From assembly GCA_943787375.1 (NCBI GenBank), contig CALSME010000002.1, positions 310,001-374,000 on the forward strand: 64,000 nucleotides of DNA, written 5' to 3'. The notes beneath the pieces are model-generated. The model was not told the origin of the DNA. It was given only the letters and a program-made list of their open reading frames with translations, and made no database searches. The stretch comes from an uncultured Polaribacter sp. GTDB lineage: Bacteria; Bacteroidota; Bacteroidia; Flavobacteriales; Flavobacteriaceae. This document shows, in pieces, positions 3,470 to 31,116 of the stretch. The position numbers and the translations under genes are program-made. Each line of letters begins with the position of its first letter. Positions within the stretch are counted from its first letter, which is position 1.

Positions 3470-3470
3470 T

Positions 3471-5287: not shown

Positions 5288-5307
5288 CTTAAACATTGTA
5301 AACAAAT

Positions 5308-6057: not shown

Positions 6058-6138
6058 GGTTGTCTTCTATATGCCTTCAACTACAGGCGTTTTCTTTTTA
6101 ATATTTTTCTATTTTAGAACCACGAATTCGGAGTTCTC

Positions 6139-7587: not shown

Positions 7588-7600
7588 CTTTTTCTAATTT

Positions 7601-7930: not shown

Positions 7931-7961
7931 AATTTTAAATAGATTAAATCTAAATTGTGTG

Positions 7962-7969
7962 CAAATATA
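7962..7969 (-). promoter_or_regulatory. -7 promoter box of the sufABCD operon
   Basis: Minus-strand TATATTTG, a full match to TAnnTTTG, lies 32 bases before the sufA ATG. It falls inside the possible N-terminal extension of sufA and so supports the shorter start. A TTTG (7982-7985) is too close to be an ideal -33 element. Confidence 0.5.
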
Positions 7970-8035
7970 CAATATATGTCTCAAAAAGAAGGCAACTTTC
8001 ATTAACAAGAACAATACGACTATTGGTTTTTTTGA

Positions 8036-9094: not shown

Positions 9095-9130
9095 TGTTTT
9101 TTTAATTTTTAGAAATAGCCTTCCTTTATT

Positions 9131-9886: not shown

Positions 9887-9887
9887 A

Positions 9888-11213: not shown

Positions 11214-11228
11214 TTTTAGGGATTGATT

Positions 11229-12440: not shown

Positions 12441-12659
12441 GGGGTTAATGATTGGTTAAAAATAATTTTTTTGATAATCGTCTCGTTTATTTTGATGAAA
12501 TAAACACCTTTTTTCAAGGCACCTTTATACAAAACGTACCTTAGGGCATTTATATTTTACTTAAAAGAAAAAAGCATTGGAAAACAAAAGTACCATAATT
12601 CTTTCCATTTCACCAAGTAACAATGTTAAAGTAAGTAGGTGTGTTCTTCTGAATGTTTT

Positions 12660-12667
12660 TATCTTTG
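12660..12667 (+). promoter_or_regulatory. -7 promoter box of thiL, almost touching the start codon
   Basis: TATCTTTG matches TAnnTTTG and ends only four bases before the ATG at 12672. Transcription would start at or within a few bases of the ATG, giving a leaderless or nearly leaderless mRNA. Confidence 0.55.
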
Positions 12668-12671
12668 CGGC

Positions 12672-13721
12672 ATGTTAGAAGATAAAAATCCACAAAAAAC
12701 GTCATTGGCTGAGCTTGGAGAGTTTGGTTTAATCAATCATATTACACAATATTTTACGGTTAAGAATGCCACTACAAAATATGCTGTTGGCGATGATGCT
12801 GCGGTGATTTCCAATCAAGATGAAACCTTAGTTACAACCGATTTACTGATTGAAGGAGTGCATTTTGATTTGAGCTACATGCCATTAAAGCATCTAGGTT
12901 ATAAGGCGGTCATGGTCAACCTATCGGATGTGTACGCGATGAATGGGAAAGCCACTCAGATTACGGTTTCGATTGCAGTTTCTAATCGTTTTCCATTGGA
13001 AGCAATTGAAGAATTGTATGCAGGAATCCAGTTGGCTTGTGATACCTATCAGGTAGATTTAGTGGGTGGAGACACGACCTCTTCTACCAAAGGAATTCTA
13101 ATTTCTGTAACGGCCATTGGAACTGCAAAAGCAGAAGATATTGTGTACAGACATGGCGCAAAAGCAACCGACTTAATTGTAGTTACTGGAGATTTAGGAG
13201 CTGCTTATTTAGGATTGCAAGTGTTAGAAAGAGAAAAGCGAGTGTTTGCGGTAGATCCAAAGAATCAGCCAGACTTAGATAATTATACGTATTTAATTGA
13301 ACGACAATTAAAACCGGAAGCTCGAAAAGATGTTGCGGGTTGGTTGAAAGAATTGGACGTAAAACCAACGGCAATGATTGATATTTCTGACGGTCTTTCT
13401 TCGGAAATCATGCACATTTGTTCGCAGAGTAAGATGGGCTGTAAAATTTACGAAGAGAAATTGCCTTTAGATCCTCAAGTAATATCTGCTTGTGAAGAGT
13501 TTGAATTGGATTCGACCATGGTCGCTTTAAGTGGCGGTGAAGATTATGAATTGCTTTTTACGGTGCCCATTGCCGATTTTGATAAAATAAAAGGAAATCC
13601 AAATTTTTCTATTATTGGACACATTACGGAAGAAAACCAAGGATTGAACTTGGTAACCAGAGCCAGTCAAGAAATTGAGCTAAAAGCACAAGGGTGGAAC
13701 TCTATGAAAGAGGAAGCATAA
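12672..13721 (+). CDS. thiL: Thiamine-monophosphate kinase
   Basis: A 349-aa ThiL phosphorylating thiamine phosphate to thiamine diphosphate. AIR-synthase-like fold: VGDDAAV (Mg-ATP site), TTDLLIEGVHFD, the DVYAMNG segment, LVGGDTTSS and the C-terminal MIDISDGLSSE and LSGGEDYELLF motifs are all present. The frame could open 33 bases earlier at an ATG, but that ATG lies upstream of the -7 box, and the family N-terminus fits the start at 12672. It is a single gene with its own promoter and terminator. Confidence 0.95.
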   Translation: MLEDKNPQKTSLAELGEFGLINHITQYFTVKNATTKYAVGDDAAVISNQDETLVTTDLLIEGVHFDLSYMPLKHLGYKAVMVNLSDVYAMNGKATQITVSIAVSNRFPLEAIEELYAGIQLACDTYQVDLVGGDTTSSTKGILISVTAIGTAKAEDIVYRHGAKATDLIVVTGDLGAAYLGLQVLEREKRVFAVDPKNQPDLDNYTYLIERQLKPEARKDVAGWLKELDVKPTAMIDISDGLSSEIMHICSQSKMGCKIYEEKLPLDPQVISACEEFELDSTMVALSGGEDYELLFTVPIADFDKIKGNPNFSIIGHITEENQGLNLVTRASQEIELKAQGWNSMKEEA

Positions 13722-13742
13722 AAACAGATAACAAAGAGACAC

Positions 13743-13781
13743 AAAAAACCCGCAAATTTTTAATTTGTGGGTTTTGTTTTT
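13743..13781 (+). terminator. Terminator of thiL
   Basis: Stem CCCGCAAATT (13749-13758) pairs with AATTTGTGGG (13762-13771), extended by A4/T4 and followed by a T tract. Confidence 0.85.
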
Positions 13782-13878
13782 TAGAGAATCTTTTACACCA
13801 ACTGCGCAAAAGAGCCTGACTTTGAGCTGCTATCATTCTCGGCGAATTGGGGAGACTTTGTGGAGGGGGTTTTTACCG

Positions 13879-13896
13879 TGTTGCCAGTAGTAACTC
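13879..13896. repeat. Left copy of an 18-bp inverted repeat bracketing a three-gene module
   Basis: TGTTGCCAGTAGTAACTC. The reverse complement of 18120-18137 is TGTTGCCAGTAATTACTC, so 16 of 18 bases match. The two copies enclose exactly the genes from 13937 to 18085. Confidence 0.55.
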
Positions 13897-13936
13897 CATA
13901 ATTTTCATTATAAAAAAATAATCAAATGAATTTAAA

Positions 13937-15982
13937 TTATTTCTTAAAAGTGAACCAATCAAGGTTTCTTGTGAAACCAATATTAAAAAATAAACTTCCC
14001 TGATTTGAAAAATCGTCTGGATCAAATTGATTAACAGTAATTTCACCTGTTCTTGGGTACTTTGGATAGACTTCAATTGTTAGTGTACTATGATGGTCAT
14101 GAACCCACTTTAAAAAATAACCAGTATACGTAGATAAATCAGCATATTTATCATTATACGTTTCTAAAGATGATTCGCCAATCCAAGAACTTCCAGCTCT
14201 TAAATTATCATCTAAATCCTCTATATATATATTATCTCCAAGACTAATTATCTGTTCTTTAATTAGCCCAAAACTTAAATGATGTCTTGCGTAATCAGTA
14301 TTACCATACCAACTAAACTTTAGTCCATATTTTAATTTTTTTGATCCAAAAGAACTCTTCGCATTACCTATTTCCTGTGAATCCAAAATATTGGATTTAG
14401 AATAGCTTTTATTACCCCATTCTAAACCTAAAACAGCTTTTATCCAAGATACTCCTCCATTAGCTTCAAAACCATAATACAAATCTGACCTAAAAGAATC
14501 AAAAATAGGAGAAAACCCTCCTTTAATACCTACATAACCCTCAGCTCGATAATTTTGACCTTCAGCAGCCATTAGCATTTTTAATCCTAAATCTACAGTT
14601 ATAGATTGAGATGGGATAAATTTTTCAACATTAAAAACATTTCCTGTAGATTCGTCAATATCCTCCATGTTCGAATTAAAGACAAGTGGTGTGGTATTCA
14701 AAGAGTACCCAAAGTCTAAGCCAAAGTGAAAATTATTAAAACCCTCTCCGTAAATATCTCCTGAATTACTACCCATATTTGAGTATATAAAACCTCCTAC
14801 AACATATAAAAAACTTGCTGATGAAGCAGCAGAAGCAGATGCTAATTGTTGGTTTCTTTTATTTGCATCTTTTACTTTATTTTTATAATCTTTTACTTTC
14901 TCTTGGATTCTTGCTTGCCTTTCACGTTCCCGTTCTTCTGCTTCTTGTTTTTCTCGTACTTTATTGCGTTCTTTTTCAGCTTCCTCCTCCTTTAGCTTTT
15001 CTGCTTTTTCTTCTTCACTTTCTAAAGATTCTTCGTTAGTGTCTTCTTTATTTTTTTCTTTTTCGGAATCTTTACCCTGTTTTTTCTTTTCTTCTACTTC
15101 TTTTTCCTCTTTATTTATGGTTTCAATTTCCTCTTCTATTTTAGAAATTTCGTTATCATAATTATTTTCTTCATCAATAGTATCTAATTTTTTATAAAGC
15201 TGTTTTTTTTCTTCTAAGTCTTCTTTACTATTGCCTAAAGTATTTATTTGTTCTTTTAACGCACTTATTTCTTCATTTTTTTGGGTTCTTTCTTCTTTTA
15301 TTCTTTCTAGCTTTTCTTCAACAGCAGAAATACGGCTATCGTAATTGCTATTTGTATCTAAGTCTTTTAAATCTTTTAATAATGCTAATTTGTGGGTTAA
15401 TTCAGCTTCCCTATTTCCTAAAGAACGTATTTCTTCTTGTAATTTTTTAATTTTTTCTTTCTTTTTGTTTTTAGCTTGTATTTTCGCTAAGTATGAATTA
15501 GGGGTTTCATTACAATTTAATTTTTCTGATAAGGTTGACACTCCATATCTTTGTTGTTCATTTTCAGAGAAATCAAAGTCTACATCAGAAATTGTTATTG
15601 AAAGACCTCTTTCATCACTTAAGTTACCGCTAGGACTATATGTAGCACCTGATTTTATACCAGAACGACCTCCATTTCCAAAACCCCATTTTGAGCAAGT
15701 AACATTAACTACGAAAGGCGAGTTATTTGTTATTCCAACCTTATATCTATAAGGTTTATCTTTATCTCCAGATGCTTTTACATAAACAGCAACATCTAAA
15801 AAGGGAAAACAGTTAAGGTTTGTTGTAGATACTCTAATATAATTAGGGGCTACAAATTTTGACTGCCCATTTACTAAAGTATTTCCTGGAAAATGGGTTA
15901 CTTTTATAGTAGCAGATTTTTGTGCGAATGCTTTGGTAAGACTAAATGCTAAAAAGAGGACAAAGAATATTTTAGATTTCAT
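13937..15982 (-). CDS. Secreted protein with long coiled coil and C-terminal outer-membrane-barrel-like region
   Basis: A 681-aa protein of unknown function. A cleavable signal peptide (MKSKIFFVLFLAFSLTKAFA) sets the start at ATG 15982; a longer frame would overlap the upstream gene. Residues ~20-150 form a beta-rich domain. Residues ~165-385 are a Lys/Glu-rich coiled coil containing a tandem duplication of ~50 residues (units starting EIRSLGN and QINTLGN). The last ~270 residues are Gly/aromatic-rich strands (GYVGIKGGFSP, FEANGGVSWIKAVLGLEW) like an outer-membrane barrel. It lies 31 bp after the small secreted gene and was probably co-transcribed with it. Confidence 0.7.
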   Translation of the reverse strand: MKSKIFFVLFLAFSLTKAFAQKSATIKVTHFPGNTLVNGQSKFVAPNYIRVSTTNLNCFPFLDVAVYVKASGDKDKPYRYKVGITNNSPFVVNVTCSKWGFGNGGRSGIKSGATYSPSGNLSDERGLSITISDVDFDFSENEQQRYGVSTLSEKLNCNETPNSYLAKIQAKNKKKEKIKKLQEEIRSLGNREAELTHKLALLKDLKDLDTNSNYDSRISAVEEKLERIKEERTQKNEEISALKEQINTLGNSKEDLEEKKQLYKKLDTIDEENNYDNEISKIEEEIETINKEEKEVEEKKKQGKDSEKEKNKEDTNEESLESEEEKAEKLKEEEAEKERNKVREKQEAEERERERQARIQEKVKDYKNKVKDANKRNQQLASASAASSASFLYVVGGFIYSNMGSNSGDIYGEGFNNFHFGLDFGYSLNTTPLVFNSNMEDIDESTGNVFNVEKFIPSQSITVDLGLKMLMAAEGQNYRAEGYVGIKGGFSPIFDSFRSDLYYGFEANGGVSWIKAVLGLEWGNKSYSKSNILDSQEIGNAKSSFGSKKLKYGLKFSWYGNTDYARHHLSFGLIKEQIISLGDNIYIEDLDDNLRAGSSWIGESSLETYNDKYADLSTYTGYFLKWVHDHHSTLTIEVYPKYPRTGEITVNQFDPDDFSNQGSLFFNIGFTRNLDWFTFKK

Positions 15983-16013
15983 AATTTTTGGTTTAAAGTT
16001 GATTTTTAAAATT

Positions 16014-16379
16014 TTAATAGCCAAATGCCTTTTCAGACCATTTCCAACTATCAAATCTCCAAGATTTAATTTTGGCGTAATTGTCTAAATTTAGACCACC
16101 ACCGTTTGACGCTTTTCCTGCACCTACAAAACCTATGTTTACGTCTTTTTGTCTTGTTCTACCATCTGTCCATTTGCTAACCACATTGAATATTTTTACA
16201 TAAACGTATTTGTTTCTTTTATTTACTGCACGAAAAGTAACACCATAATCGTGTTGTTTATAGTAAAGTGAAACTCCATTACTTGTTTCGTGGTATTTGT
16301 AACCGTCTACATTTTGTGAAAAAGAGAGACTAATTGCTCCAATTGTTATTAATAGGAATAATAATATTTTTGTTTTCAT
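16014..16379 (-). CDS. Small secreted protein, unknown
   Basis: A 121-aa protein with a signal peptide (MKTKILLFLLITIGAISLSFSQ). The mature part (~100 aa) is beta-rich, with YKYHETSNGVSLYYKQ and a Trp-rich C-terminus (WRFDSWKWSEKAFGY). Its phrase VGAGKASNGGGL and general layout recall the N-terminal domain of the next gene (VTCSKWGFGNGG), so the two may be related modules. No known family is recognised. It is the middle gene of the bracketed module. Confidence 0.6.
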   Translation of the reverse strand: MKTKILLFLLITIGAISLSFSQNVDGYKYHETSNGVSLYYKQHDYGVTFRAVNKRNKYVYVKIFNVVSKWTDGRTRQKDVNIGFVGAGKASNGGGLNLDNYAKIKSWRFDSWKWSEKAFGY

Positions 16380-16501
16380 TTTGTTCTGTTTTAATTAAAC
16401 CAGAACAAATCAATGAAAACAAAGCGTCTAAATATAATTTTTGTCGTGAATGACATAAAACTATACGCAACTGACAGGAATAAATATATGTTTTTGAAAA
16501 A

Positions 16502-18085
16502 CTAATCTTCCTTGTGTAGAATATCTTTAAGTTGTTGTTTGTATGTTCTCGATAAATTTATCCAAACACCATTATCGAGCATTACTTTTGTAGAGTTAAT
16601 AATTTTAATACGATAAATATTTACAATAAATGATTTATGTATTCTAATAAAGGAATTTGAAGGAAGTGTTTTTAAAACTTCATTTAATGAGTTTCTATCA
16701 ATTTCTGGATTGGTTTTATTGTCAATAAAATACTCAACATAATGACCATCTGATTTTATATATAAAATATCCGTACTGTTTAAAATGGCTTTACTCTTTA
16801 ATTGAATTATTTCGTTATTTATTATTAGTTCTTTTTTTGATTTTTCTTCCTTAAAAATATTTAGCTCTTTTTGTAATAAATCAAATTCGGTCTTTATAGT
16901 TTTATTTTTTAAAAATAAATTACGGGATATGAAAACGCCGAATACTAGTATAAAAAGAATTAAAATTTTATAGACTATCGATAAGTTTTCTAATTTGTCT
17001 ATAAATCTTTCTTTTTCTTTTGTTTCGTATTTTATACCTAATTCTACAATTTTTTTTTGAGTTAAAACTTCATTTAAACTATCTTTTAAAGAAATATAAG
17101 CATTTGAATACTCTAAAGATTTTTTAAAATCATTATTGCCTTTGTGTGCCTTTTGAAGATTTTTTAAAATTTGAAATTTTTGTCTATGTGTAGCAGCATT
17201 TTGTAATGCAGAATCTAAATATATAATTGCTGATGAGTAATCTTCATCTTTTATATATATGTCGCCAATGTTATTGTATTGTATGGCAAGACCAATTTTG
17301 AGACCCCCCTTTTTCTTGACTGCTAAGCATTTTAAAGTATACGCTAATCCTTTTTTATAGTCACCAGTTTTAACCATAGTTTGAGCCATACTGTTGTATA
17401 CTGGTGCACTTACATATACAGGCATACTATCTAACTTTATAGTTTTTTCTATTTCATTAATAATTTCTAAAGATTTGTTTGTATTATACGCATTAAAATT
17501 TGCGATACGATTTCCTTGAAGTTGTGTATAAATATTTTTTTTGTCTTTAAAAAAGGATTGCGATTTTTGATAATAGGTTTCTGCACGTTTATGGTGTTTA
17601 TTTAATAAATACAGATCTGCTACATTGACGTAAGTTTTCCCTAAATTAATATTGGTTTTGTCTTTTTCTTCAAAATAACTAATAACTTCAAATAAATCTT
17701 CCAGTGCCTTTTTAGAATTATTAAGCTGTCTTTGGCATAATGCCATATTTACTTTTACTTTATAAGCATCAATCTCTTTACCTGAAAACTTAGAAATATT
17801 ATAACAACGATTAAAATAGTTATAAGATTTAGTATATTCTTTTTTATGAAAATACACTCTTCCATACTGGTTAAGAATATCAGTAAATGTTGAGCTTATT
17901 GTGTCTTTTGTTTTTAATAAAGTATAAGCTTTTTTTATATAAGAAAAAGAACTGTCAATATTCTTAGATTCAAATTCAATAGATTTTTCGTAGTTTTTTT
18001 TGGCAATTTCAAAATGATTATTTTGTGAGAATGTGTTTTTGGTTATTAGGATAATAATTAAAAAGGTTAGTAGTTTCTTGGTCAT
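16502..18085 (-). CDS. TPR sensor with transmembrane helix and LytTR DNA-binding domain
   Basis: A 527-aa protein. A signal peptide or first helix (~1-20) leads into ~8 tetratricopeptide repeats (to ~345, for example AETYYQKSQSFF and YNNIGDIYIKDEDYSSAIIYLDSAL), one transmembrane helix (~365-385), a short coiled coil, and a C-terminal LytTR domain (~425-527) with ILYIKSDGHYVEYF, SLNEVL, FIRIHKSFIVN and INLSRTYKQQL. The TPR part would be periplasmic and the LytTR part cytoplasmic, a one-protein signal route without a kinase. Three 20-bp-spaced LytTR-like sites lie upstream (18285-18332). Confidence 0.85.
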   Translation of the reverse strand: MTKKLLTFLIIILITKNTFSQNNHFEIAKKNYEKSIEFESKNIDSSFSYIKKAYTLLKTKDTISSTFTDILNQYGRVYFHKKEYTKSYNYFNRCYNISKFSGKEIDAYKVKVNMALCQRQLNNSKKALEDLFEVISYFEEKDKTNINLGKTYVNVADLYLLNKHHKRAETYYQKSQSFFKDKKNIYTQLQGNRIANFNAYNTNKSLEIINEIEKTIKLDSMPVYVSAPVYNSMAQTMVKTGDYKKGLAYTLKCLAVKKKGGLKIGLAIQYNNIGDIYIKDEDYSSAIIYLDSALQNAATHRQKFQILKNLQKAHKGNNDFKKSLEYSNAYISLKDSLNEVLTQKKIVELGIKYETKEKERFIDKLENLSIVYKILILFILVFGVFISRNLFLKNKTIKTEFDLLQKELNIFKEEKSKKELIINNEIIQLKSKAILNSTDILYIKSDGHYVEYFIDNKTNPEIDRNSLNEVLKTLPSNSFIRIHKSFIVNIYRIKIINSTKVMLDNGVWINLSRTYKQQLKDILHKED

Positions 18086-21377: not shown

Positions 21378-22670
21378 TTAAGCATTCATAAGATCTTCAA
21401 TTTCATCTGCTTCAATAGGAATATTTCCCATTAGATTAAAAGGGGCTCCGTTTTCTTGAACCACCACATCATCTTCCAAACGAATTCCAAAACCTTCTTT
21501 AGGAATGTAGATTCCAGGTTCTACTGTAAAGACCATATTGGCTTCCATCGGTTTGTGAAGCAATCCATAATCGTGCGTGTCCAATCCAATATGATGGCTG
21601 GTACCGTGCATGAAATACTTTTTATATGCAGGCCAATTTTTATCCTCATTCTGAACATCTGCTTTGTCGAGCAAACCTAATTTCAGTAATTCTGCCGTCA
21701 TAATTCCGCCAACTTCAATATGGTAATCTTTCCAAATCGTTCCTGGCGTTAAGAGTTTTGTTGCCTCTTTTTTTACATGGTTTACTGCGTTGTATACTGC
21801 TTTTTGTCTTTCAGAAAATTTTCCAGAAACCGGAACCGTTCTTGACAAATCACTTTTATAATTGGCATATTCTGCCGCAATATCAAACAAGATTAAATCG
21901 CCTGCTTTACATTGCTGATTGTTTTCGATATAGTGCAATACATTGGCATTGTTTCCGCTGGCAATTATGGGCGTGTAAGCGAAGCCTTTAGAGCGATTTT
22001 TTATGAATTCATGAATCAATTCTGCTTCAATTTCATATTCCCAAACACCGGGTTTCACAAAATTTAGAATCCTTCTAAAACCTTTTTCGGTAATATTAGA
22101 AGCTTGCTGCATTAAATCCAATTCAATCGGATCTTTAACGGCACGCAAGCGCTGTAAAATAGGATTGCTTTTGGCAACACTGTGTGCAGGATATTTTGCC
22201 AACAACCATTTTGTAAAACGGTCTTCACGGGTTTCAGTCGCTACATTGGCTCTGTAATGTTCGTTGGTATTAATGTAAAAAGTATCGCAGTACGAAGCCA
22301 TTTCAAAGAGGACCTTCTCTAGATCTTGCAGCCAAAACACCGTTTGAACCCCAGCCGTTTTAAACGCCGCTTCTTTGGTTAGTTTTTCTCCTTCCCAAAC
22401 CGCAATGTGTTCGTTGGTTTCCGTTAGAAAAAGGACTTCTCGTAAGTTTTCATTGGGGCAATCTGGAAACAGCATTAACACACTTTCTTCTTGGTCTACG
22501 CCACTCAAATAAAAGAGGTCTCTATGTTGTTCAAAGGGCATGGTACTGTCTGCGCTAATCGGATAGATATCATTCGAATTAAAAATAGCCAAGCTATTCT
22601 CCTTCATTAAGGAAGCAAAGTTTTTACGATTTTTAACAAAAAGTTGTGTGTCTATTTTCTGGTATTTCAT
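21378..22670 (-). CDS. pepP: Xaa-Pro aminopeptidase (aminopeptidase P)
   Basis: M24 'pita-bread' metallopeptidase of 430 aa releasing N-terminal residues before proline. An N-terminal creatinase-like domain (~1-170) precedes the catalytic domain, which carries the metal ligands: LFDIAAEYANYKSDLSR (two Asp), HGTSHHIGLDTHD (His), TVEPGIY (Glu) and GIRLEDDVVV (Glu). No signal peptide is seen, so it should be cytoplasmic. It is a single gene. Confidence 0.93.
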   Translation of the reverse strand: MKYQKIDTQLFVKNRKNFASLMKENSLAIFNSNDIYPISADSTMPFEQHRDLFYLSGVDQEESVLMLFPDCPNENLREVLFLTETNEHIAVWEGEKLTKEAAFKTAGVQTVFWLQDLEKVLFEMASYCDTFYINTNEHYRANVATETREDRFTKWLLAKYPAHSVAKSNPILQRLRAVKDPIELDLMQQASNITEKGFRRILNFVKPGVWEYEIEAELIHEFIKNRSKGFAYTPIIASGNNANVLHYIENNQQCKAGDLILFDIAAEYANYKSDLSRTVPVSGKFSERQKAVYNAVNHVKKEATKLLTPGTIWKDYHIEVGGIMTAELLKLGLLDKADVQNEDKNWPAYKKYFMHGTSHHIGLDTHDYGLLHKPMEANMVFTVEPGIYIPKEGFGIRLEDDVVVQENGAPFNLMGNIPIEADEIEDLMNA

Positions 22671-23045
22671 GTGTATGTATTAAAAATATTGAAAATTAAG
22701 GAATTGAAAAGAATTTTTTTTAATTTTTCCAATCTTTATTTTTTTTAATAATTTTTTTAAGTATTGGTCGTACTTCAATAAGTTTAGTACAGATTATTTA
22801 GCGTCCATATAGTCTCTCTTTTAGGGATGAAATGCTTGTTATGGAAACTTCGTGTAATTGTGTTCATAAACAAAAATACAATTCTTTTATCATTTAAATC
22901 GTTACAATCATTTCGAGCGTAGGGAGAAATCCTAAGAAAATGTATTTAGGTTTTTTTTGGTTATTATAGTCGCGCTATCGAAAGGACTGCGAGTATCAAT
23001 TATTAACTTTTGTTAAAAAAAATTTTTGTGAAACCATTTTTTTCT
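22671..23045. other. Gene-free stretch with degraded repeat-like sequence
   Basis: About 375 bp without a credible ORF. It is very AT-rich near 22720-22760. The stretches TTTCGAGCGTAGGGAGAAAT (22914-22933) and TCGCGCTATCGAAAGG (~22970-22985) resemble the short 'TTTCGAGCG...GAGAAAT' intergenic repeats common in flavobacteria, here as degraded copies. The right end carries the promoter of the next gene. Confidence 0.4.
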
Positions 23046-23053
23046 TAACTTTG
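23025..23053 (+). promoter_or_regulatory. Promoter of the secreted protein at 23063
   Basis: TTTG (23025-23028) and TAACTTTG (23046-23053) match the -33 and -7 elements of Bacteroidota with a 17-bp spacer. The ATG follows nine bases after the -7 box, so the leader is very short. Confidence 0.55.
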
Positions 23054-23062
23054 CACTTAATT

Positions 23063-23722
23063 ATGATTGCAAAACTTTACAATAGGATAAAAACTTACAG
23101 AAAAAAGAGCGTTTTAGGAATGCTTGTTTTTCTGTTTTTCTGTTGTCTGTCTAGTCCTGAAATACAAGCTCAGTTTATAATAAAAGAAAATACAACTTTT
23201 GTGCTGTTGGGTACAGAAAGTAAAATTACTATCGGCGATGCTAAAATTGCAATAAATTCCTCTGTAGAAGGTCTTGGTAAAATAAAATTTACAGGAAATC
23301 AAAATCAAACACTAACTTTAACTAGCGGTATCGTTGTTCCAAACATTATCGTAGACAATGCAGATAATTTCACCTTAAAAAGTAAGCTCATTGTAAATAA
23401 TAATTTTACTGTAAAAAAAGGAACGTTACGTTTACAAAAACCACTTATTGTAAATGGGGAAATATCTTTTACGTCAGAAGCAAGTATAGATCTGTTCTCT
23501 AAGCGGTATTTAATAACACCAACAACTATTAAAAAAGGGAATGATCCTTTTACATTGGTTCAGGTAGAATACATCGTTCCTGTTTTATTAGATGATAATA
23601 AAAAAGAAAATTCACACAGAGATATCTCTTCTTTAGATTTTAAACAATCTTGGGCATATCTCTCTAATTTGGTAAAAATTCACCAAAACCCACCAATTTC
23701 TCCGCCTCCTAGAATGGTTTAA
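23063..23722 (+). CDS. Secreted beta-strand repeat protein, unknown
   Basis: A 219-aa protein with a signal peptide whose hydrophobic core is GMLVFLFFCCLSS (cleavage probably after QAQ). The body is a ladder of short beta strands (ITIGDAKIAINSSVEGLGKIKFTG, then LIVNNNFTVKKGTLRLQKPL and LIVNGEISFTSEASIDL), like the beginning of a right-handed beta-helix. It ends with a Pro-rich tail (PPISPPPRMV). No sorting domain and no known family. It lies at the left edge of the hypervariable-gene region. Confidence 0.6.
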   Translation: MIAKLYNRIKTYRKKSVLGMLVFLFFCCLSSPEIQAQFIIKENTTFVLLGTESKITIGDAKIAINSSVEGLGKIKFTGNQNQTLTLTSGIVVPNIIVDNADNFTLKSKLIVNNNFTVKKGTLRLQKPLIVNGEISFTSEASIDLFSKRYLITPTTIKKGNDPFTLVQVEYIVPVLLDDNKKENSHRDISSLDFKQSWAYLSNLVKIHQNPPISPPPRMV

Positions 23723-23770
23723 TTTGGATAAATTTTTAGAAAATAAAAATTTACTTAATACTGGTTTTTT

Positions 23771-23833
23771 AAAGAAAGAAGACGTTTTATCCTTTCTTTA
23801 AAAACAGCAGCTATTTCCATTTAATTAAACAAA
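23771..23833 (+). repeat. Head segment of the ~1.1-kb tandem unit (copy a)
   Basis: The segment beginning AAAGAAAGAAGACG, with the small AAAGAAAG/CTTTCTTT dyad, and ending TTAAACAAA is repeated almost exactly at 25952-26014 and 27072-27134. In this first copy it is cut off from its gene by a ~1.07-kb insertion (23834-24902). Confidence 0.75.
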
Positions 23834-23843
23834 AGACCACCTT

Positions 23844-23893
23844 TAACTTTGTAATTTTTTAGTCATCAATAAAAATGATTTCATTTTTGTTGA
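23844..23893 (+). promoter_or_regulatory. Possible promoter and AT-rich hairpin before the methyltransferase
   Basis: TAACTTTG (23844-23851) matches the -7 element. About 12 bases later ATCAATAAAAATGA pairs with TCATTTTTGTTGAT (to ~23893) around a 2-base loop. The ATG lies over 100 bases downstream, so the hairpin would be at the 5' end of the leader. Whether it regulates anything is unknown. Confidence 0.3.
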
Positions 23894-24004
23894 TACAGAT
23901 TATTTATTTATAACACCAATAACTACAATCTCTTTTGTAGATCGTTTAGATAAATGGTTGCATATCTTCTTAGTTAGTAGTTATTTAAAAGCAGAACGAA
24001 AAAG

Positions 24005-24640
24005 ATGAAATGGTACGACAAAATATCAGGATTTTATGACTTCTTTACGGAACGAATTTATCGTAACGAAAGAAATGAATTGTTTGAAAAACTTGAACTG
24101 AAAAAAGGGGATAGTGTTTTACTTGTTGCTTGCGGAACAGGAATAAGTTTTCAGCCTATTTTGAAGAGAATAAGGAAAGAAGGTAGAATTGTCGGAATTG
24201 ACAGCTCTCCAAAAATGCTTGAAATCGCCAATAATAAGATCAAAAAAAATAAGTGGACAAATATTGAGTTAATTAATGCTAATGCAGAATTGATAAACAG
24301 TGAATTGATTGAAAGCCAAATGGGAGAAAAAATCGAATTTGATTTTGTTATTGCCGAATTAGCTTTTTCGGTTATTCCAGATTGGAAAGCGTCAATGAGA
24401 AAATCTATAAAACTTCTTAAAAAGAATGGTAAAATAGGAGTGTTGGATGGATTTAGAGAACAAAATGACTGGATAAATCGAATACTAAATTTTTTACCAA
24501 AGAGTGATATAAGTAGAAATGTTTCTGAATACCTAAACGAATTGACTACAAATTATTGGAGCAAAAGGCTTGGTAAAACAGGTATATTATTCATTGGAAT
24601 TGGAGAAAAAACAACTGCTAACAAGGTATATAAAAAATAG
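24005..24640 (+). CDS. Class I SAM-dependent methyltransferase
   Basis: A 211-aa Rossmann methyltransferase. Motif I is VLLVACGTGISFQP (~38-51), an acidic loop follows in VGIDSSPKMLEIA, and motif IV-like FDFVIAELAFSVIPDW and a GKIGVLDGF strand are present. The closest general type is a UbiE/COQ5-like enzyme acting on a small molecule. It sits inside the segment that interrupts the first tandem unit, so it was probably acquired. Its TAG stop lies inside one arm of an 11-bp inverted repeat. Confidence 0.85.
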   Translation: MKWYDKISGFYDFFTERIYRNERNELFEKLELKKGDSVLLVACGTGISFQPILKRIRKEGRIVGIDSSPKMLEIANNKIKKNKWTNIELINANAELINSELIESQMGEKIEFDFVIAELAFSVIPDWKASMRKSIKLLKKNGKIGVLDGFREQNDWINRILNFLPKSDISRNVSEYLNELTTNYWSKRLGKTGILFIGIGEKTTANKVYKK

Positions 24641-24727
24641 CGGTTTAATCGCTTAATCGAAAGAAAATGAACAAATTAAGGTCAATTATAAATCGAAAAG
24701 TCAGTGCTTAAAATCCGCTATTTTTCA
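24632..24727. repeat. Inverted repeat at the 3' end of the methyltransferase gene
   Basis: AAAAATAGCGG around the methyltransferase stop is matched ~70 bases later by CCGCTATTTTT, an 11-bp perfect pairing enclosing sequence with weaker internal dyads. It could be a long terminator or the end of a gene cassette. Confidence 0.45.
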
Positions 24728-24837
24728 TATACAAGACCGCGATTATTGCCATTATTGTAGGAATTTATAAAATTCTACAAATACACAGTGATATTCAAGA
24801 AAAGAAAAAACGAATTAAAGAGAATGATAAAAAATAA
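24718..24837 (+). pseudogene. Remnant of a small membrane-protein gene
   Basis: A start-less frame encodes a hydrophobic helix followed by a charged tail (TAIIAIIVGIYKILQ, then EKKKRIKEN). It ends with TAA but has no start codon or RBS, so it is probably the 3' end of a small membrane protein gene brought in with the insertion. The rest of 24641-24978 shows no other gene. Confidence 0.35.
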
Positions 24838-24978
24838 GAGTAGCTGTCTAGGTTCGTAAATTGAAACGATAAAAAAATAAAACGTTTAAATACTTAAACA
24901 AATACACGATTAAACAACAGAATACCTGCAATTGCCAACAGGTTTAAAATGGCATAAAATTATTTTAAAAACAAAAAA

Positions 24979-25755
24979 ATGAAAAAATTATTATTAAGTG
25001 TAGCTTTTATAACTGCAACAACAATGAGTTTTGCACAAATTGGTATTGGAACTTCGACACCAGAAGCTTCTGCTGTTTTAGATGTTACTTCTACCACACA
25101 AGGACTTTTACCTCCAAGATTAACAGAAGCCCAAATAAATGGTGTTACTTCTCCAGTAGAAGGCTTAATGGTGTATTGTTCGGACTGTGCTGTCAAAGGG
25201 ATGTATGTTTTTACAGGAAGTGCTTGGGAACAAATAACAGGTTCTTCTGTGTCTTATGCAGAAATTTCTTCTAGTGGAGAAACATGGATGACTAAAAATT
25301 TGGGAGCATTACATGAAGCAACTTCGTCTACAGATGCTGCTGCTTACGGAGATTTGTACCAATGGGGGAGAACCACAGATGGGCATGAAAAAAGAAATTC
25401 TACAGCAGTAGCAGGCCCTGTGGCTAGTGGTAGTGAAGGAGCGAACTTTATTCTCAACGGAACAACGCCTTATGATTGGTTAAGTACCCAAGATAATACA
25501 CGTTGGGGAGCTACTAAAACGGCGAACGACCCTTGCCCTACAGGATATAGAGTGCCTACAGAAACAGAATTAAATGCAGAACGTTTGTTGTTTTCAACCA
25601 ATAATGCAGCTGGTGCTTATAATTCTGAGCTAAAGTTACCAGTTGCTGGTTACCGCCACCACAGTCTTGATGAACTTTATGAGGTAGGTACCTTCGGCCA
25701 CTATTGGACTAGTACCATTAGTGGCATTTACGCGCGTAAGCTATTCTTGGAGTAG
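24979..25755 (+). CDS. Secreted FISUMP-like variable protein, copy 1 (DGR target-like)
   Basis: A 258-aa protein: signal peptide (MKKLLLSVAFITATTMSFAQ), an IGIGTSTPEASAVLD stalk start, and a C-terminal FISUMP/C-type-lectin-like domain (WMTKNLGALHEATSS, YQWGRTTDGHEKRN, DPCPTGYRVPTETEL, then LKLPVAGYR). DNA up to ~25650 is nearly identical to copies 2 and 3, and then a hypervariable stretch follows. The frame stops at TAG 25753. The family's usual ending (SVRCIKE, stop TAA 25820-25822) lies in the +1 frame, as in the other copies. It is probably surface-exposed and ligand-binding. Confidence 0.75.
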   Translation: MKKLLLSVAFITATTMSFAQIGIGTSTPEASAVLDVTSTTQGLLPPRLTEAQINGVTSPVEGLMVYCSDCAVKGMYVFTGSAWEQITGSSVSYAEISSSGETWMTKNLGALHEATSSTDAAAYGDLYQWGRTTDGHEKRNSTAVAGPVASGSEGANFILNGTTPYDWLSTQDNTRWGATKTANDPCPTGYRVPTETELNAERLLFSTNNAAGAYNSELKLPVAGYRHHSLDELYEVGTFGHYWTSTISGIYARKLFLE

Positions 25756-25822
25756 TAATAGTAATGGCATGAGCAGTCGCGTGCGTTCGAACGGTTATTC
25801 AGTACGTTGCATTAAGGAGTAA
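25651..25822 (+). repeat. Variable region of copy 1 (VR-like)
   Basis: Hypervariable relative to 26758-26935 and 27884-28055. Codons differ at first and second positions while the third base is kept, for example CAC/TAC/TTC before TATTGG. The region ends in the conserved TCAGTACGTTGCATTAAGGA. Confidence 0.65.
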
Positions 25823-25894
25823 AACCTTTGGGTTTTGCACCCTTTAAACGTAACAATTTTTTAAATACCGTTTTACGTTTTATTTATTTTACGA

Positions 25895-26026
25895 ATGACA
25901 GTGCAGGAAAAAATTAATTTAGCAGCGCAACCTAATAAGTTATATCTTTTTAAAGAAAGAAGACGTTTTATCCTTTCTTTAAAAAACAGCAGCTATTTCC
26001 ATTTAATTAAACAAATACACGATTAA
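25895..26026 (+). pseudogene. Truncated copy of the small MutS-domain-I-like gene (after copy 1)
   Basis: It starts like the longer ORF at 28128 (MTVQEKINLAAQPNKLYLFK) and then runs into the head of the next tandem unit, giving a 43-codon fusion with no homologous C-terminus. It was created by the tandem duplication junction at TTTTTAAAGA. Confidence 0.6.
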
Positions 26027-26091
26027 ACAACAAAATACCTGCAATTGCCAACAGGTTTAAAATGGCATAAAATTATTTAAAAAACAAAAAA

Positions 26092-26892
26092 ATGAAAAAA
26101 TTAGTACTAAGTGTAGCTTTTATAGCTGCAACAACAATGAGTTTTGCACAAGTTGGTATTGGAACTACGACACCAGAAGCTTCTGCCGTTTTAGATCTTA
26201 CTTCTACCACACAAGGACTTTTACCTCCAAGATTAACAGAAGCCCAAATGAATGCTGTTACTTCTCCAGTAGAAGGCTTAATGGTGTATTGTTCGGACTG
26301 TGTTGCCAAAGGGATGTATGTTTTTACAGGAAGTGCTTGGGAACAATTAGCAGGACAAGATCTAGCAACGCAAGAGGTAATTTCTTCTAGTGGAGAAATA
26401 TGGATGAATAAAAATTTGGGAGCATTACGTGTAGCAACTTCGTCTGCAGATGCTGCTTCTTATGGAGATTTGTACCAATGGGGGAGAACCACAGATGGGC
26501 ATGAAAAAAGAAATTCTACAACAGCAGCAGGCCCTGTGGCTAGTGGTAGTGAAGGAGCAAACTTTATTACCGGATCACCTGCTTGGTTAAGTAGCATAGA
26601 TGATACACGTTGGGGCGCTCCTAAAACGGCGAACGACCCTTGCCCTACAGGATATAGAGTGCCTACAGAAACAGAATTAAATGCAGAACGTTTGTTGTTT
26701 CCAACCAATAATGCTGCTGGTGCTTATAATTCTGAGCTAAAGTTACCGGTTGCTGGTTACCGCAGCTACAGTACTGGTGCACTTGATAATGTAGGTACCA
26801 CTGGCTACTATTGGTCTAGTACTATGTCAATGACGCTTACAAGCGTTACCTCTTCTTCGAGAATAGTAGTAATAATGTCACATAGCCAATAA
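26092..26892 (+). CDS. Secreted FISUMP-like variable protein, copy 2
   Basis: A 266-aa paralogue of copies 1 and 3 with the same signal peptide and lectin-like domain (YQWGRTTDGHEKRN, DPCPTGYRVPTETEL, YYWSSTMS). The typical family continuation (KRYLFFENSSNN) is readable in the -1 frame, and the conserved SVRCIKE ending (stop 26933-26935) needs a second shift. Two single-base losses near 26829 and 26883 would explain this, so the present stop at 26892 replaces the usual C-terminus. Its middle part also differs by a short deletion (LNGTTPYDWLSTQDN in copy 1 against TGSPAWLSSIDD here). Confidence 0.7.
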   Translation: MKKLVLSVAFIAATTMSFAQVGIGTTTPEASAVLDLTSTTQGLLPPRLTEAQMNAVTSPVEGLMVYCSDCVAKGMYVFTGSAWEQLAGQDLATQEVISSSGEIWMNKNLGALRVATSSADAASYGDLYQWGRTTDGHEKRNSTTAAGPVASGSEGANFITGSPAWLSSIDDTRWGAPKTANDPCPTGYRVPTETELNAERLLFPTNNAAGAYNSELKLPVAGYRSYSTGALDNVGTTGYYWSSTMSMTLTSVTSSSRIVVIMSHSQ

Positions 26893-26935
26893 CTATCATG
26901 CTTACGGCTTTTCAGTACGTTGCATTAAGGAGTAA
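26758..26935 (+). repeat. Variable region of copy 2 (VR-like)
   Basis: Most diverged of the three variable regions and six bases longer between TGG and the conserved 3' end (100 against 94). It ends with the same TCAGTACGTTGCATTAAGGA. Confidence 0.65.
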
Positions 26936-26952
26936 GCACCCTTTAAACTTAC

Positions 26953-26984
26953 ATTGGCTACCCTACGGGGTAGCCAATTTTTAA
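26953..26984 (+). terminator. Strong terminator present only after copy 2
   Basis: ATTGGCTACCC (26953-26963), loop TACG, GGGTAGCCAAT (26968-26978), then TTTTT. Copies 1 and 3 lack this hairpin and have CGTAACAATTTTTT at the same place. Confidence 0.8.
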
Positions 26985-27014
26985 ATACCGTTTTACGTTT
27001 TATTTATTTTACGA

Positions 27015-27146
27015 ATGACAGTGCAAGAAAAAATTAATTTAGCAGCACAACCTAATAAGTTGTATCTTTTTAAAGAAAGAAGACGTTTTATCCTTTCTTT
27101 AAAAAACAGCAGCTATTTCCATTTAATTAAACAAATGCACGATTAA
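27015..27146 (+). pseudogene. Truncated copy of the small MutS-domain-I-like gene (after copy 2)
   Basis: Same 43-codon fusion as at 25895, produced by the second duplication junction at 27072. Confidence 0.6.
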
Positions 27147-27211
27147 ACAACAAAATACCTGCAATTGCAACAGGTTTAAAATGGCATAAAATTATTTAAA
27201 AAAACAAAAAA

Positions 27212-27988
27212 ATGAAAAAATTAGTATTAAGTGTAGCTTTTATCGCTGCAACAACAATGAGTTTTGCACAAATTGGTATTGGAACTTCGACACCAGAAGC
27301 TTCTGCTGTTTTAGATCTTACTTCTACCACACAAGGACTTTTACCTCCAAGATTAACAGAAGCCCAAATAAATGTTATTGTTTCTCCAGTAGAAGGCTTA
27401 ATGGTGTATTGTTCGGACTGTGCTGTCAAAGGGATGTATGTTTTTACAGGAGGTGCTTGGGAACAAATAACAGGTTCTTCTGTGCCTTATGTAGCAATTT
27501 CTTCTAGTGGAGAAACATGGATGAATAAAAATTTGGGAGCATTACATGAAGCAACTTCGTCTACAGATGCTGCTGCTTACGGAGATTTGTACCAATGGGG
27601 GAGAACCACAGATGGGCATGAAAAAAGAAATTCTACAGTAGTAGCAGGCCCTGTGGCTAGTGGTAGTGAAGGAGCAAACTTTATTACCAGCGGAACAACG
27701 CCTTTTGATTGGTTAAGTACCCAAGATAATACACGTTGGGGAGTTCCTAAAACGGCGAACGACCCTTGCCCTACAGGATATAGAGTGCCTACAGAAACAG
27801 AATTAAATGCAGAACGTTTGTTGTTTCCAACCAATAATGCAGCTGGTGCTTATAATTCTGAGCTAAAGTTACCGGTTGCTGGTAGCCGCCGCTACTATAC
27901 TGGTGCACTTTATGAGGTAGGTGTCAGAGGCTTCTATTGGACTAGTACCATTAATGGCACTACCGCGAGTACCCTAAGCCTTCAGTAG
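27212..27988 (+). CDS. Secreted FISUMP-like variable protein, copy 3
   Basis: A 258-aa paralogue with the same signal peptide, stalk and lectin-like domain. The VR begins AGC-CGC-CGC-TAC-TAT where copies 1 and 2 have TAC-CGC-CAC-CAC-AGT and TAC-CGC-AGC-TAC-AGT. The frame ends at TAG 27986-27988. The usual family end (SSSNVNMFGY, then GFSVRCIKE, stop 28053-28055) lies in the +1 frame, with the break around CTTC at 27980-27983. An indel, a sequence error or a programmed shift are all possible. Confidence 0.72.
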   Translation: MKKLVLSVAFIAATTMSFAQIGIGTSTPEASAVLDLTSTTQGLLPPRLTEAQINVIVSPVEGLMVYCSDCAVKGMYVFTGGAWEQITGSSVPYVAISSSGETWMNKNLGALHEATSSTDAAAYGDLYQWGRTTDGHEKRNSTVVAGPVASGSEGANFITSGTTPFDWLSTQDNTRWGVPKTANDPCPTGYRVPTETELNAERLLFPTNNAAGAYNSELKLPVAGSRRYYTGALYEVGVRGFYWTSTINGTTASTLSLQ

Positions 27989-28055
27989 TAGTAATGTTAA
28001 CATGTTCGGTTACGATCGTTCTTACGGCTTTTCAGTACGTTGCATTAAGGAGTAA
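27884..28055 (+). repeat. Variable region of copy 3 (VR-like)
   Basis: It differs from copies 1 and 2 mainly at first and second codon positions and ends in TACGGCTTTTCAGTACGTTG followed by CATTAAGGAGTAA. The same 3' sequence, with a few changes, recurs at 28286-28314 as a possible template end. Confidence 0.65.
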
Positions 28056-28127
28056 AACCTTTGGGTTTTGCACCCTTTAAACGTAACAATTTTTTAAATT
28101 CCGTTTTACGTTTTATTTATTTTACGA

Positions 28128-28304
28128 ATGACAGTGCAAGAAAAAATTAATTTAGCAGCACAACCTAATAAGTTGTATCTTTTTAAAGAGGGCATGTTTT
28201 ATAAAGCCTATAACCAAAATACAATGTGGTTTGTACAACACATAAACCCTTACAAAGTAACCATTAAGTATATAAAAAATTGCAAACGGCTTTTCAGTAC
28301 GTAG
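28128..28304 (+). CDS. Small MutS-domain-I-like ORF fused to a VR-type 3' end (truncated)
   Basis: 58 codons starting MTVQEKINLAAQPNKLY. The stretch LFKEGMFYKAYNQNTMWFVQ resembles the start of MutS domain I (F-x-x-G-x-F-Y-x-x-(F/Y)-x-x-(D/N)). From memory, small proteins of this kind lie next to reverse transcriptases in Bacteroidota DGRs. After KYIKNCK the frame runs into sequence copied from the 3' end of the variable regions and stops, so the gene is truncated by a deletion. It is the longest of three copies. Confidence 0.5.
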   Translation: MTVQEKINLAAQPNKLYLFKEGMFYKAYNQNTMWFVQHINPYKVTIKYIKNCKRLFST

Positions 28305-28314
28305 CATTAAGGAG
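28286..28314 (+). other. Stranded VR/TR-like 3' end (candidate template-repeat remnant)
   Basis: ACGGCTTTTCAGTACGT is identical to the end of VR copies 2 and 3. The following AGCATTAAGGAGAAC differs from VR TGCATTAAGGAGTAA at a few bases, as IMH* of a DGR template differs from IMH of its target. It lies outside any variable gene. Confidence 0.5.
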
Positions 28315-28372
28315 AACAGTTTTTGTGATACGGTTAATTGTTGAGATCATAAGAACATTAAAATAAAAAATT

Positions 28373-29710
28373 ATGAAGTATTTATGTTTAGTATTCATTA
28401 CAATACTAACACTCAAACAAACAAATGCACAAGCCATTTCGGGAAATTTAAAACATCATGCAGGTCAAGAATTTACCTTCCAAGGATTTGATTATTACGA
28501 AACCAAAGATCTGGCAACAACTGTTGTCGACAGTCTCGGAAACTTTACACTCCATTACCCAAAAGAATACAAAGGCATGGCATTGTTAAAAAGCCAAGAT
28601 AAGAATAGTTTGGTGCTTTTGCTTGGTAAAGAGCCTTTCGTTACAATACAAGGTACACATATTACAGAAATCGATAGTTTGCAGTTTAATGCAACCGAAA
28701 ATGCAACATTTTTTAAGTATGCAATAGGGCAAGGTTATAGAACCAATGCATTAAATGCTTGGAAATATTTAGACAAGTTGTACAACATGGATAAACAATT
28801 TACTGAACAAAAAAAAGTAAAAAAAATAATCCAAAAAGAGTTACAACGCATCAAAGAAACAGCTCAAAAACTAGTAAACGGTTTAGCTACTGATAGTTAT
28901 TTACGATGGTTTATTCCGTATAGAAAGTTTATACAAGAAATGCCTACTATTATTAGAACCGAAACAGAACGCATACCAGCAAGTATTGCTTTGTTTAGGA
29001 ATACAGATTTTAACCATGCAAATTGGAAAACGAGTGGGGTACTTAAAGAGTTTATTGAAGCACATTATTTTATGTTGGAAAACTATAAAAGTTTAGAGGA
29101 GAATGCAGTAGAAATGAACTTAAGCAGCAAGGCGCTTATTTATAATTTAAAAGACAACAAAGAATTGTTGAATAAGGTGTCTAAAGAATTGTTTATTTAT
29201 TTAGAGGAACGAAGTTTATATAAAGCATCCAAATATTTGGCTGTTGAACTGCTAACCAATCATAGAAAAACATTAGAACTCAATGTAATAAAGCGTTTAG
29301 AAAAGTATGGTTCGCTTAAAATAGGAAATAAAGCACCAAATATACAATTTGCAGATAAAAAATTAAGCGATTATCAGCAGCCTGTATTGTTGGTTTTTGG
29401 AGTAAGTGACTGTGCTGCATGTAAAACAGAAGCTGTAGAAATGTTAAAATATTATGACACTTGGAAAGCAGAAAAAAATGTAGAAGTGGTTTATATAAGT
29501 TTAGACACAGATAAAACAGTGTATGAACAAGCCTATAAAAATGCACCTTGGCAAATGGTGAATGACTTTAAGGGTTGGAAATCAGAAATAGTAAAATCAT
29601 ATGCTATTTATGGAACACCCACTTATTTTTTATTGGATGCAGAAGGTAAAATAGTATCGCATATAAACTCAGTAGGGCATGCAAATGCTTTTATTATGTC
29701 TAGACTTTAA
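28373..29710 (+). CDS. Secreted thioredoxin-like (TlpA/ResA-type) protein
   Basis: A 445-aa protein. It has a signal peptide (MKYLCLVFITILTLKQTNA), an N-terminal ~100-residue DUF4369-like beta domain (GHAGQEFTFQG-type strands), a helical middle, and a C-terminal thioredoxin fold from ~335 with LLVFGVSDCAACKTEAVEML (CxxC = CAAC) and the cis-Pro segment YGTPTYFLLDAEGKI. It probably acts as a periplasmic or surface thiol-disulfide oxidoreductase. It follows the variable-gene region directly, but no functional link is evident. Confidence 0.82.
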   Translation: MKYLCLVFITILTLKQTNAQAISGNLKHHAGQEFTFQGFDYYETKDLATTVVDSLGNFTLHYPKEYKGMALLKSQDKNSLVLLLGKEPFVTIQGTHITEIDSLQFNATENATFFKYAIGQGYRTNALNAWKYLDKLYNMDKQFTEQKKVKKIIQKELQRIKETAQKLVNGLATDSYLRWFIPYRKFIQEMPTIIRTETERIPASIALFRNTDFNHANWKTSGVLKEFIEAHYFMLENYKSLEENAVEMNLSSKALIYNLKDNKELLNKVSKELFIYLEERSLYKASKYLAVELLTNHRKTLELNVIKRLEKYGSLKIGNKAPNIQFADKKLSDYQQPVLLVFGVSDCAACKTEAVEMLKYYDTWKAEKNVEVVYISLDTDKTVYEQAYKNAPWQMVNDFKGWKSEIVKSYAIYGTPTYFLLDAEGKIVSHINSVGHANAFIMSRL

Positions 29711-29725
29711 GTTTTTAATCGATAG

Positions 29726-29758
29726 AATTCCCCGAGGCTCTGCCTCCGAGGAGCTTAG
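29726..29758. repeat. Short GC-rich REP-like element
   Basis: CCCCGAGGCTCTGCCTCCGA stands out from AT-rich surroundings: a GAGGC/GCCTC dyad with CCGAGG repeated. It resembles short intergenic palindromes common in flavobacteria and may serve as a terminator for the converging genes. Confidence 0.35.
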
Positions 29759-29853
29759 TTTTCAAGATGTTGTGTTTTCTCTTTTAGTAGATTTTTCTCT
29801 AAAAAAAATAGAGAAACTTAATAACAGCAGTATGGATAAAATCCATGTCTTTG

Positions 29854-31116
29854 TTATTTTTTAGAATACTTTTTTCTTGAAGGCCTGTTTTTAGATGGTT
29901 TATTCTTTTGGTTTGAGGCATTTGAAGTCTTCTTTCCAAAAGAGCCTTTACTTTGCGTAGCTGCTCTTTTTGGAGGTGCTGTATCTGTTGGTTCGAAACC
30001 TGCTACGATCGTAGAGTTCAATTTCTCTTTTAATAATTTTTCAATCTCGTTTTGGTATTCAATTTCTTCACTACAAACCAAAGAGATTGCCTCTCCAGCA
30101 GCACCAGCTCTTCCTGTTCTTCCAATTCGATGTACATAATCTTCAGGAACGTTTGGCAATTCAAAATTAATGACATGTGGCAATAATGGAATGTCTAAAC
30201 CACGCGCAGCAATGTCGGTAGCTACTAAAATCTTAATGGTATTGTCTTTAAAATTTCGAAGCGCTTTTGTTCTGGCTCCTTGGCTTTTATTTCCGTGAAT
30301 TGCAGCAGCAGAAATGCCGGCTTTTATTAGCTTTTCAGTCAATTTGTTTGCACCATGTTTGGTTCTTGTAAAAACCAACACCTGCGTCCAGTTGTTGTCT
30401 TTAATTAATTTAATAGTAAACTCGGTTTTCCTTTTTTTATCCACTTTATAAACCTTGTGGGTTACTTTTTTTGCTGTTGAATTTTGAGGCGCCGTTTCTA
30501 CAGAAACAGGATTTCTTAAAATACCAGCAGCGAGTTTTTTAATATCGTTTGAAAAAGTAGCAGAAAACATTAAGTTTTGACGCTTTTCTGGCATAAAACG
30601 AATGATTTTGTTGATGTCTCTTACAAAACCCATGTCCAACATTCTATCTGCTTCGTCTAAAATTAATACCTCTACACGTTTAAAAGAGAGCGCTTTTCGA
30701 TCATGTAAATCCAACAGTCTTCCGGGAGTTGCCACCAAAATATCAACCCCATTTTTCAAGGTAGCTATTTGTGGTTTTGCGTTTACGCCACCAAAAATAA
30801 CCGTCGATTTAATGTTTACATACTTACTGTATTCTCGCACATTGTCATGTACCTGTGCAGCGAGTTCTCTTGTTGGTGTTAACACCAACGCACGCAAAGG
30901 TCTGTATTTTGGGTGTTTAGTTTCTGATAAATACTGTAAAACAGGCAAGGTAAATCCTGCTGTTTTTCCAGTTCCTGTTTGCGCAGAAGCTAAAATATCT
31001 TTTCCTTTTAAAATATGTGGAATTGCTTTTTCTTGTATGGGAGACGGTTTGGTATACCCTTTCTCTTCAACGGCTTTTACCAATGCTGAAGACAAACCTA
31101 AATCTGAAAATGTCAT
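29854..31116 (-). CDS. DEAD-box RNA helicase (RhlE-like)
   Basis: A 420-aa ATP-dependent RNA helicase: Q-motif YTKPSPIQ (~20-27), motif I AQTGTGKT (~44-51), motif II DEAD, motif III SAT and motif [10 protein letters not shown]. The C-terminal tail is Lys/Ser/Asn-rich ([12 protein letters not shown]), probably an RNA-binding extension. Such proteins act in ribosome maturation or RNA turnover and are often cold-induced. It is a single gene. Confidence 0.93.

Follow-up and report, generated by a model that had tools for sequence, protein, structure and literature searches.

What became of the machinery that apparently diversified three tandem FISUMP-type genes with strongly variable 3′ ends is the question raised by this locus of an uncultured Polaribacter sp. 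An earlier note on the 64,000-nucleotide stretch of DNA analyzed here (the window) had proposed that the genes were targets of a diversity-generating retroelement (DGR) whose reverse transcriptase (RT) "may be lost or act from elsewhere." Sequence comparison with congeners indicates, with high confidence, that the window holds a former DGR locus from which the cassette was deleted in place.

The target array and its variable repeats

The three target genes follow one another with start-to-start spacings of ∼1113 and ∼1120 nt, in agreement with the tandem copies of ∼1.12 kb first described (Table 1). A 39-nt leader repeat, identical at 23766, 25947, and 27067, is continued each time by a 37-nt repeat. 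The limits originally given to the array had to be moved at both ends. It does not begin at 23771, because the first target starts only after ∼1.06 kb of DNA (23834–24890) that carries a methyltransferase ORF (24005–24640) and splits the leader of the first repeat. Nor does target DNA extend to 28314, a position that falls within the end of a template repeat (TR) and not within a fourth target.

Table 1. Features of the proposed former DGR locus in the window
Feature	Position	Strand	Basis or remarks
Repeat leader, upstream copy; also precedes copies 2 and 3	23766..23833	+	39-nt and 37-nt repeats
Target copy 1, predicted secreted, FISUMP-type	24979..25755	+	ORF 258 aa, exits tail frame within VR; PF09603 E = 1.5e-5, below cut-off
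VR of copy 1, 180 nt	25639..25818	+	Alignment to TRs of G043, G173, and G192
msl-like accessory gene start, cut by tandem-repeat junction	25895..25960 (right edge approximate)	+	tblastn with G043 msl 25895–25999, E = 6.6e-8; leader resumes 25947
Target copy 2	26092..26892	+	ORF 266 aa, exits tail frame within VR; PF09603 E = 1.9e-5, below cut-off
VR of copy 2, 186 nt	26746..26931	+	Alignment to TRs
msl-like gene start after copy 2, cut by repeat junction	27015..27080 (right edge approximate)	+	tblastn 27015–27119, E = 7.8e-8
Target copy 3	27212..27988	+	ORF 258 aa, exits tail frame within VR; PF09603 E = 5.4e-6, below cut-off
VR of copy 3, 180 nt	27872..28051	+	Alignment to TRs
msl-like gene, first third, up to breakpoint	28128..28280	+	80% identity over 54 residues to G043 msl, E = 9.4e-27
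TR 3′ end	28281..28323	+	91% to L074 6188–6230 (G043 TR); 89% to L109 5975–6019 (G173 TR)
Thioredoxin-like gene, closes DGR locus in congeners	28373..29710	+	45% identity to G043 gene, E = 1.5e-116; Thioredoxin_8 53.0 bits, cut-off 27

In a profile search, the window ORFs scored 25.5–27.2 bits against PF09603, below its cut-off of 33.9, and two full-length relatives from the protein database passed it (P0001, 39.3 bits; P0002, 36.3 bits). All scores with TIGR02145 were below cut-off, for the window ORFs and the relatives alike, and a search of the PDB with P0001 at E ≤ 0.1 found no sequence relative. From their signal-peptide-like start and family, the target products are probably secreted binding proteins.

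From the ATG to the start of the variable repeat (VR), over 651–660 aligned nt, the gene bodies share 96.7% identity between copies 1 and 3, 91.1% between copies 1 and 2, and 91.4% between copies 2 and 3. The description of this DNA as "almost identical" thus suits copies 1 and 3 but not the pairs with copy 2 (∼91%). With dN/dS values between copies of 1.01, 3.14, and 0.95, purifying selection is not evident, and the bodies are nonetheless open. The value of 3.14 belongs to copies 1 and 3 (24979–25638 against 27212–27871), with ∼20 nonsynonymous and 2 synonymous changes. These two copies differ at 22 of 660 positions in the body and at 46 of 179 VR columns aligned to the G043 template. With divergence so much greater in the VRs than in the bodies, diversification would have continued after the tandem duplication, and the RT would have been lost later.

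In the 78 nt at the 5′ side of the VR that align without gaps, 11 of 26 first codon positions, 9 of 26 second positions, and 4 of 26 third positions are variable, and the codon series reported earlier, with changes at first and second positions, is present as quoted. Conservation does return at the 3′ end, as had been noted, in that the last ∼20 bases are common to the VRs and the TR, with the TR end in the window one base different from the VRs; this resembles the IMH end of a DGR and may function as such. However, the tail ...SVRCIKE lies outside the frame of all three window ORFs, so that each copy must carry at least one frameshift within its VR, a feature absent from the earlier account, whereas the bodies carry none. 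In the stretches 25730–25760 and 27970–27995, the VRs of copies 1 and 3, equal in length, are each one base longer than the congener TR, an excess that could possibly stem from a common template or ancestor. A strong hairpin 3′ of copy 2 (z = −5.26) looks like a terminator. A hairpin directly 3′ of the VRs was not supported in copies 1 and 3 (z = −0.76), G043 (−0.46), or G173 (0.45).

Congener loci and the adenine bias

A search with target copy 3 at E ≤ 1e-40 matched 7 of 147 genomes, own genome counted, at a cut-off that misses G173 and G192, both of which have targets. The G043 RT at E ≤ 1e-5 matched 14 of the 166 searched genomes of the genus, among which we count G050, G056, G057, and G067 on the strength of their label "same genus." Six matches were strong (G036, G041, G043, G156, G173, and G192; E ≤ 2.3e-99) and eight weak (5.6e-11 to 7.9e-6). 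The RT match is free of internal stops in G041, G043, and G173, contains a single stop in each of G156 and G192, and falls into two pieces in G036. The gene order target, msl, RT, Avd, TR, thioredoxin-like gene is found in G043, G173, G192, and G036; G156 has the order msl, Avd, TR, RT, and the G041 locus lies on a short contig without the neighbor gene. A scan of genome contigs gave two distant loci.

The assignment of these genes was examined in G043. Pfam recognized its RT as RVT_1 (71.5 bits, cut-off 29.6) and its Avd as bAvd (57.8, cut-off 40), and the Avd also matched the PHROG family "Avd protein of DGR" (E = 6.4e-20), with the NCBIfam Avd model remaining below cut-off (53.4 vs. 80). 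NCBIfam made no DGR-RT assignment for the RT, its best model being a group II intron RT at 94.2 bits against a cut-off of 300. The best solved relative of the RT is PDB 8ub7, "Reverse transcriptase" (E = 1e-22), which we take to be the RT of the Bordetella phage DGR. The accessory gene is presumably the one named msl and linked to MutS in DGRs; MutS_I matched the msl-like protein at E = 0.0088, below cut-off. An adenine-biased repeat pair was present at all six RT loci scanned. Over whole repeats, TR/VR mismatches fall on TR adenines in 16 of 16 cases in G043, 19 of 20 in G173, and 21 of 22 in G192.

With the window's own TR missing, congener TRs served as proxies. Aligned to the G043 TR, the window VRs vary at 39 of 57 adenine columns and at 29 of 122 others (p = 2e-8). 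The outcome was similar with the TRs of G173 (37/59 vs. 31/120, p = 3e-6) and G192 (36/59 vs. 32/119, p = 2e-5), for columns at which A is present in all three proxies or in none (34/50 vs. 27/110, p = 2e-7), and with a hand-anchored alignment (31/55 vs. 17/118, p = 3e-8). As a control, the last 330 nt of the body showed no bias, neither with G043 (9/97 vs. 16/194, p = 0.83) nor with G173 (4/88 vs. 19/206, p = 0.24). The 29 variable columns away from adenines indicate that ordinary change or a different template contributed as well. The alignment of the VRs that had been suggested at the outset thus yielded differences biased to the adenines of a congener template. The earlier note had also said what would speak against a DGR, namely a lack of template and RT in the genome or in close relatives and VR differences without adenine bias; the congeners carry both, and the bias is present.

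The junction and the fate of the cassette

Downstream of copy 3, the remains of a cassette stand in the order of the complete loci: msl start, TR end, thioredoxin-like gene. Window positions 28087–28280 correspond to G043 (L074) 3635–3829 at 81%, running into msl, and the G043 msl-like protein matches 28128–28289 by tblastn. At the breakpoint 28280/28281, msl breaks off after its first third and continues directly into the last ∼43 bp of the TR. Comparison with G173 places the break at the identical window base (3733 | 5975), where the two parts abut base for base as they do against G043. Matches to G192 stop at 28260 and restart at 28294, so that this break agrees but is placed only within ∼33 nt. 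The stretch missing from the window is 2358 nt long in G043 and 2241 nt long in G173; it comprises two thirds of msl, the RT, Avd, and the remainder of the TR, and may well have gone in one deletion event. We rejected the reading of 28281–28314 as the end of a fourth target. Template-like adenines are retained in the segment, the stop codon found in the VRs is missing at the corresponding place, and the thioredoxin-like gene lies next to it just as it lies next to the G043 TR. In addition, two comparisons put its border with msl at one and the same base.

A genome-wide search for a template repeat and a DGR-type RT, as the earlier note had suggested, recovered only the TR end in the own assembly (2.12 Mb, 10 contigs, 79% complete), whereas both RT and template are present in congeners. 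In the 79%-complete assembly, neither a profile search with RVT_1 (whose control matched 3 of 14 named genomes) nor the G043 RT as query at E ≤ 1e-5 gave a match, and the full TR is absent apart from the ∼43 bp at the junction. Avd was without a match in the assembly at E ≤ 10, in a search run without a positive control, and is absent between target and thioredoxin-like gene in the window. A template elsewhere in the assembly was sought with a VR and with the G043 TR up to E = 10 and rejected: significant matches were confined to the three VRs, the TR end, and a lone VR tail on contig C7 (22992–23039), and the others were 13–26 nt long with E values of 0.4–5.2. A scan for TR-like pairs found none in window positions 22001–30000; in the target array of G067, it returned weak pairs, mostly near gene starts.

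The protein database gave 1397 matches at E ≤ 1e-20, its entries being cluster representatives at 90% identity. Among the best 120, which we examined, P0001 (280 aa) shares 256 of 257 residues with copy 3 and 21 of 25 in the tail, P0002 (281 aa) 255 of 258 with copy 1 and 22 of 22 in the tail, and P0003 (281 aa) 252 of 264 with copy 2 and 18 of 18 in the tail. All three keep the frame open through the tail. Each resembles one of the copies, so that the VR variants occur again with little change, and full-length versions of the proteins are on record. Since the VR residues of similar proteins from other contigs are almost those of the window, the VRs look like fixed variants, although the entries are of unstated strains, P0002 has a blank source field, and some entries may derive from further assemblies of this very sample.

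The evidence leaves little room for a history without a DGR, in which ordinary paralogue divergence, positive selection, or gene conversion produced the 3′ variation. Both the body dN/dS values and the variation at non-adenine columns speak for such a history, but it does not account for an adenine bias that the VR shows and the body lacks, and it is contradicted by remnants of msl and the TR, ordered as expected, with a TR end at the junction; we regard it as scarcely credible. Continued diversification of the array in trans, with a DGR RT and template lying in the fifth of the genome that is missing from the assembly, is also improbable, to a somewhat lesser degree. The 79% completeness of the assembly leaves space for these, and remote targets occur in Treponema denticola according to the consulted portion of PMC4891356. 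The local TR, however, is deleted down to its end with no other TR in the assembly, the ORFs are frameshifted within the VR, and nearly the same VR residues recur in other contigs. Of the two fates originally proposed for the RT, loss is therefore favored over action from elsewhere, with the assembly only 79% complete; the proposal that the tandem genes were DGR targets is borne out by the congener RT and template at the same locus, the adenine bias, and the TR end.

Whether the VR frameshifts are real is a separate matter, on which we are evenly divided. They may be consensus errors of the assembly, given that P0001, P0002, and P0003, so near to the three copies, keep open frames through the tail and that the window bodies are free of frameshifts while each VR has at least one. 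Against this, P0006 of another contig, with a copy-2 type VR, likewise ends out of frame, and the one-base excess of copies 1 and 3 over the congener TR lies in the same short stretch, where a common origin is possible.

Deletion of the cassette in place remains our preferred explanation, and it suggests the following course of events. The ancestor would have had a target, msl, RT, Avd, TR, and thioredoxin-like gene in the order still held by congeners. The target would then have been duplicated in tandem, probably via a short sequence common to the repeat leader and msl, and mutagenic retrohoming from an adenine-rich template would have diversified the VRs of the copies, as the adenine bias suggests. 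A deletion next fused msl with the TR 3′ end and removed RT and Avd, as the junction against two congeners shows. Since then, the VRs would have been inherited as fixed variants, in keeping with the similar proteins in other contigs, and they may be decaying.

Decay within the genus and known systems

Loci at various stages of loss were found elsewhere in Polaribacter. In G036, the RT is split and the TR, judged by eye, is shortened; a second G036 locus has a target and thioredoxin-like gene without a cassette. On L073 of this genome (6889–8725), a minus-strand transposase-like ORF, presumably IS256-like, abuts a truncated FISUMP target. Of an RT, G057 retains no more than a short RVT_1 fragment that contains a stop (E = 1.7e-8). 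The own genome contains a second decayed locus on C7 (L018 7673–8436), with a small upstream protein, the VR tail standing alone with no target body, and a disrupted thioredoxin-like gene.

Targets near a thioredoxin-like gene but without RT or Avd occur in G050 and G067. In G050 (L076), the usual upstream genes are followed by targets and then the thioredoxin-like gene, with no cassette between. G067 (L077) has nine tandem two-domain FISUMP targets at 2395–16913, all open and with variable ends, an msl remnant at 10495–10599 (E = 2.9e-8), and a thioredoxin-like gene at 17070; no DGR-type RT was found in it by the genus search with the G043 RT (E ≤ 1e-5). Identity among these targets is 0.67 at the VR end vs. 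0.88 upstream, and column entropy is 0.90 at G043-TR adenine columns vs. 0.61 (p = 7e-4). We offer only tentatively, and would not be surprised to see it fail, the generalization that Polaribacter has repeatedly lost the cassette while keeping diversified targets and multiplying them in tandem, three here and nine in G067, as a fixed repertoire of binding proteins (a "frozen library").

The closest known systems are the G043 and G173 loci, which share with the window the FISUMP-type target, msl start, TR end, and thioredoxin-like neighbor in the same order and differ from it in having kept RT, Avd, and full TR, with mismatches that are adenine-only or nearly so. As far as our searches show, the template scar and a decay series within one genus are new here, and the only literature match for DGR together with Polaribacter concerned crAss-like phages. 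The series runs at one locus from complete (G043 and G173) through a damaged RT and shortened template (G036) to the base-exact scar of the window, and it makes testable whether DGR targets are useful, and whether they multiply, after loss of the mutator.

Further afield, the DGR of Bordetella phage BPP-1, in the available excerpt of PMC6642488, has its VR at the 3′ end of the target and RT, Avd, and TR as in the complete congener loci; the loci described here differ from it in their cellular FISUMP-type targets and additional msl-like gene, and the window further in the loss of the cassette. DGRs have been classed as active or inactive by VR variation, in the part of PMC8144416 that treats this. 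Remnant TR–VR homology without an RT is described for cyanobacteria in a passage of PMC7517822; that case resembles the window in having a variable protein without a nearby RT, but it is a dispersed paralogue, whereas the window would be the original locus after a deletion. In T. denticola, target remnants persist in isolates without RT and TR, so that targets outlast the core DGR in both systems, and the window differs, as far as the consulted text of PMC4891356 goes, in its visible scar of TR end and accessory-gene start and its tandem array with apparently fixed VRs. Because targets that outlast their DGR are already known from that portion of the T. denticola account, the window would represent a well-preserved case of a known kind.
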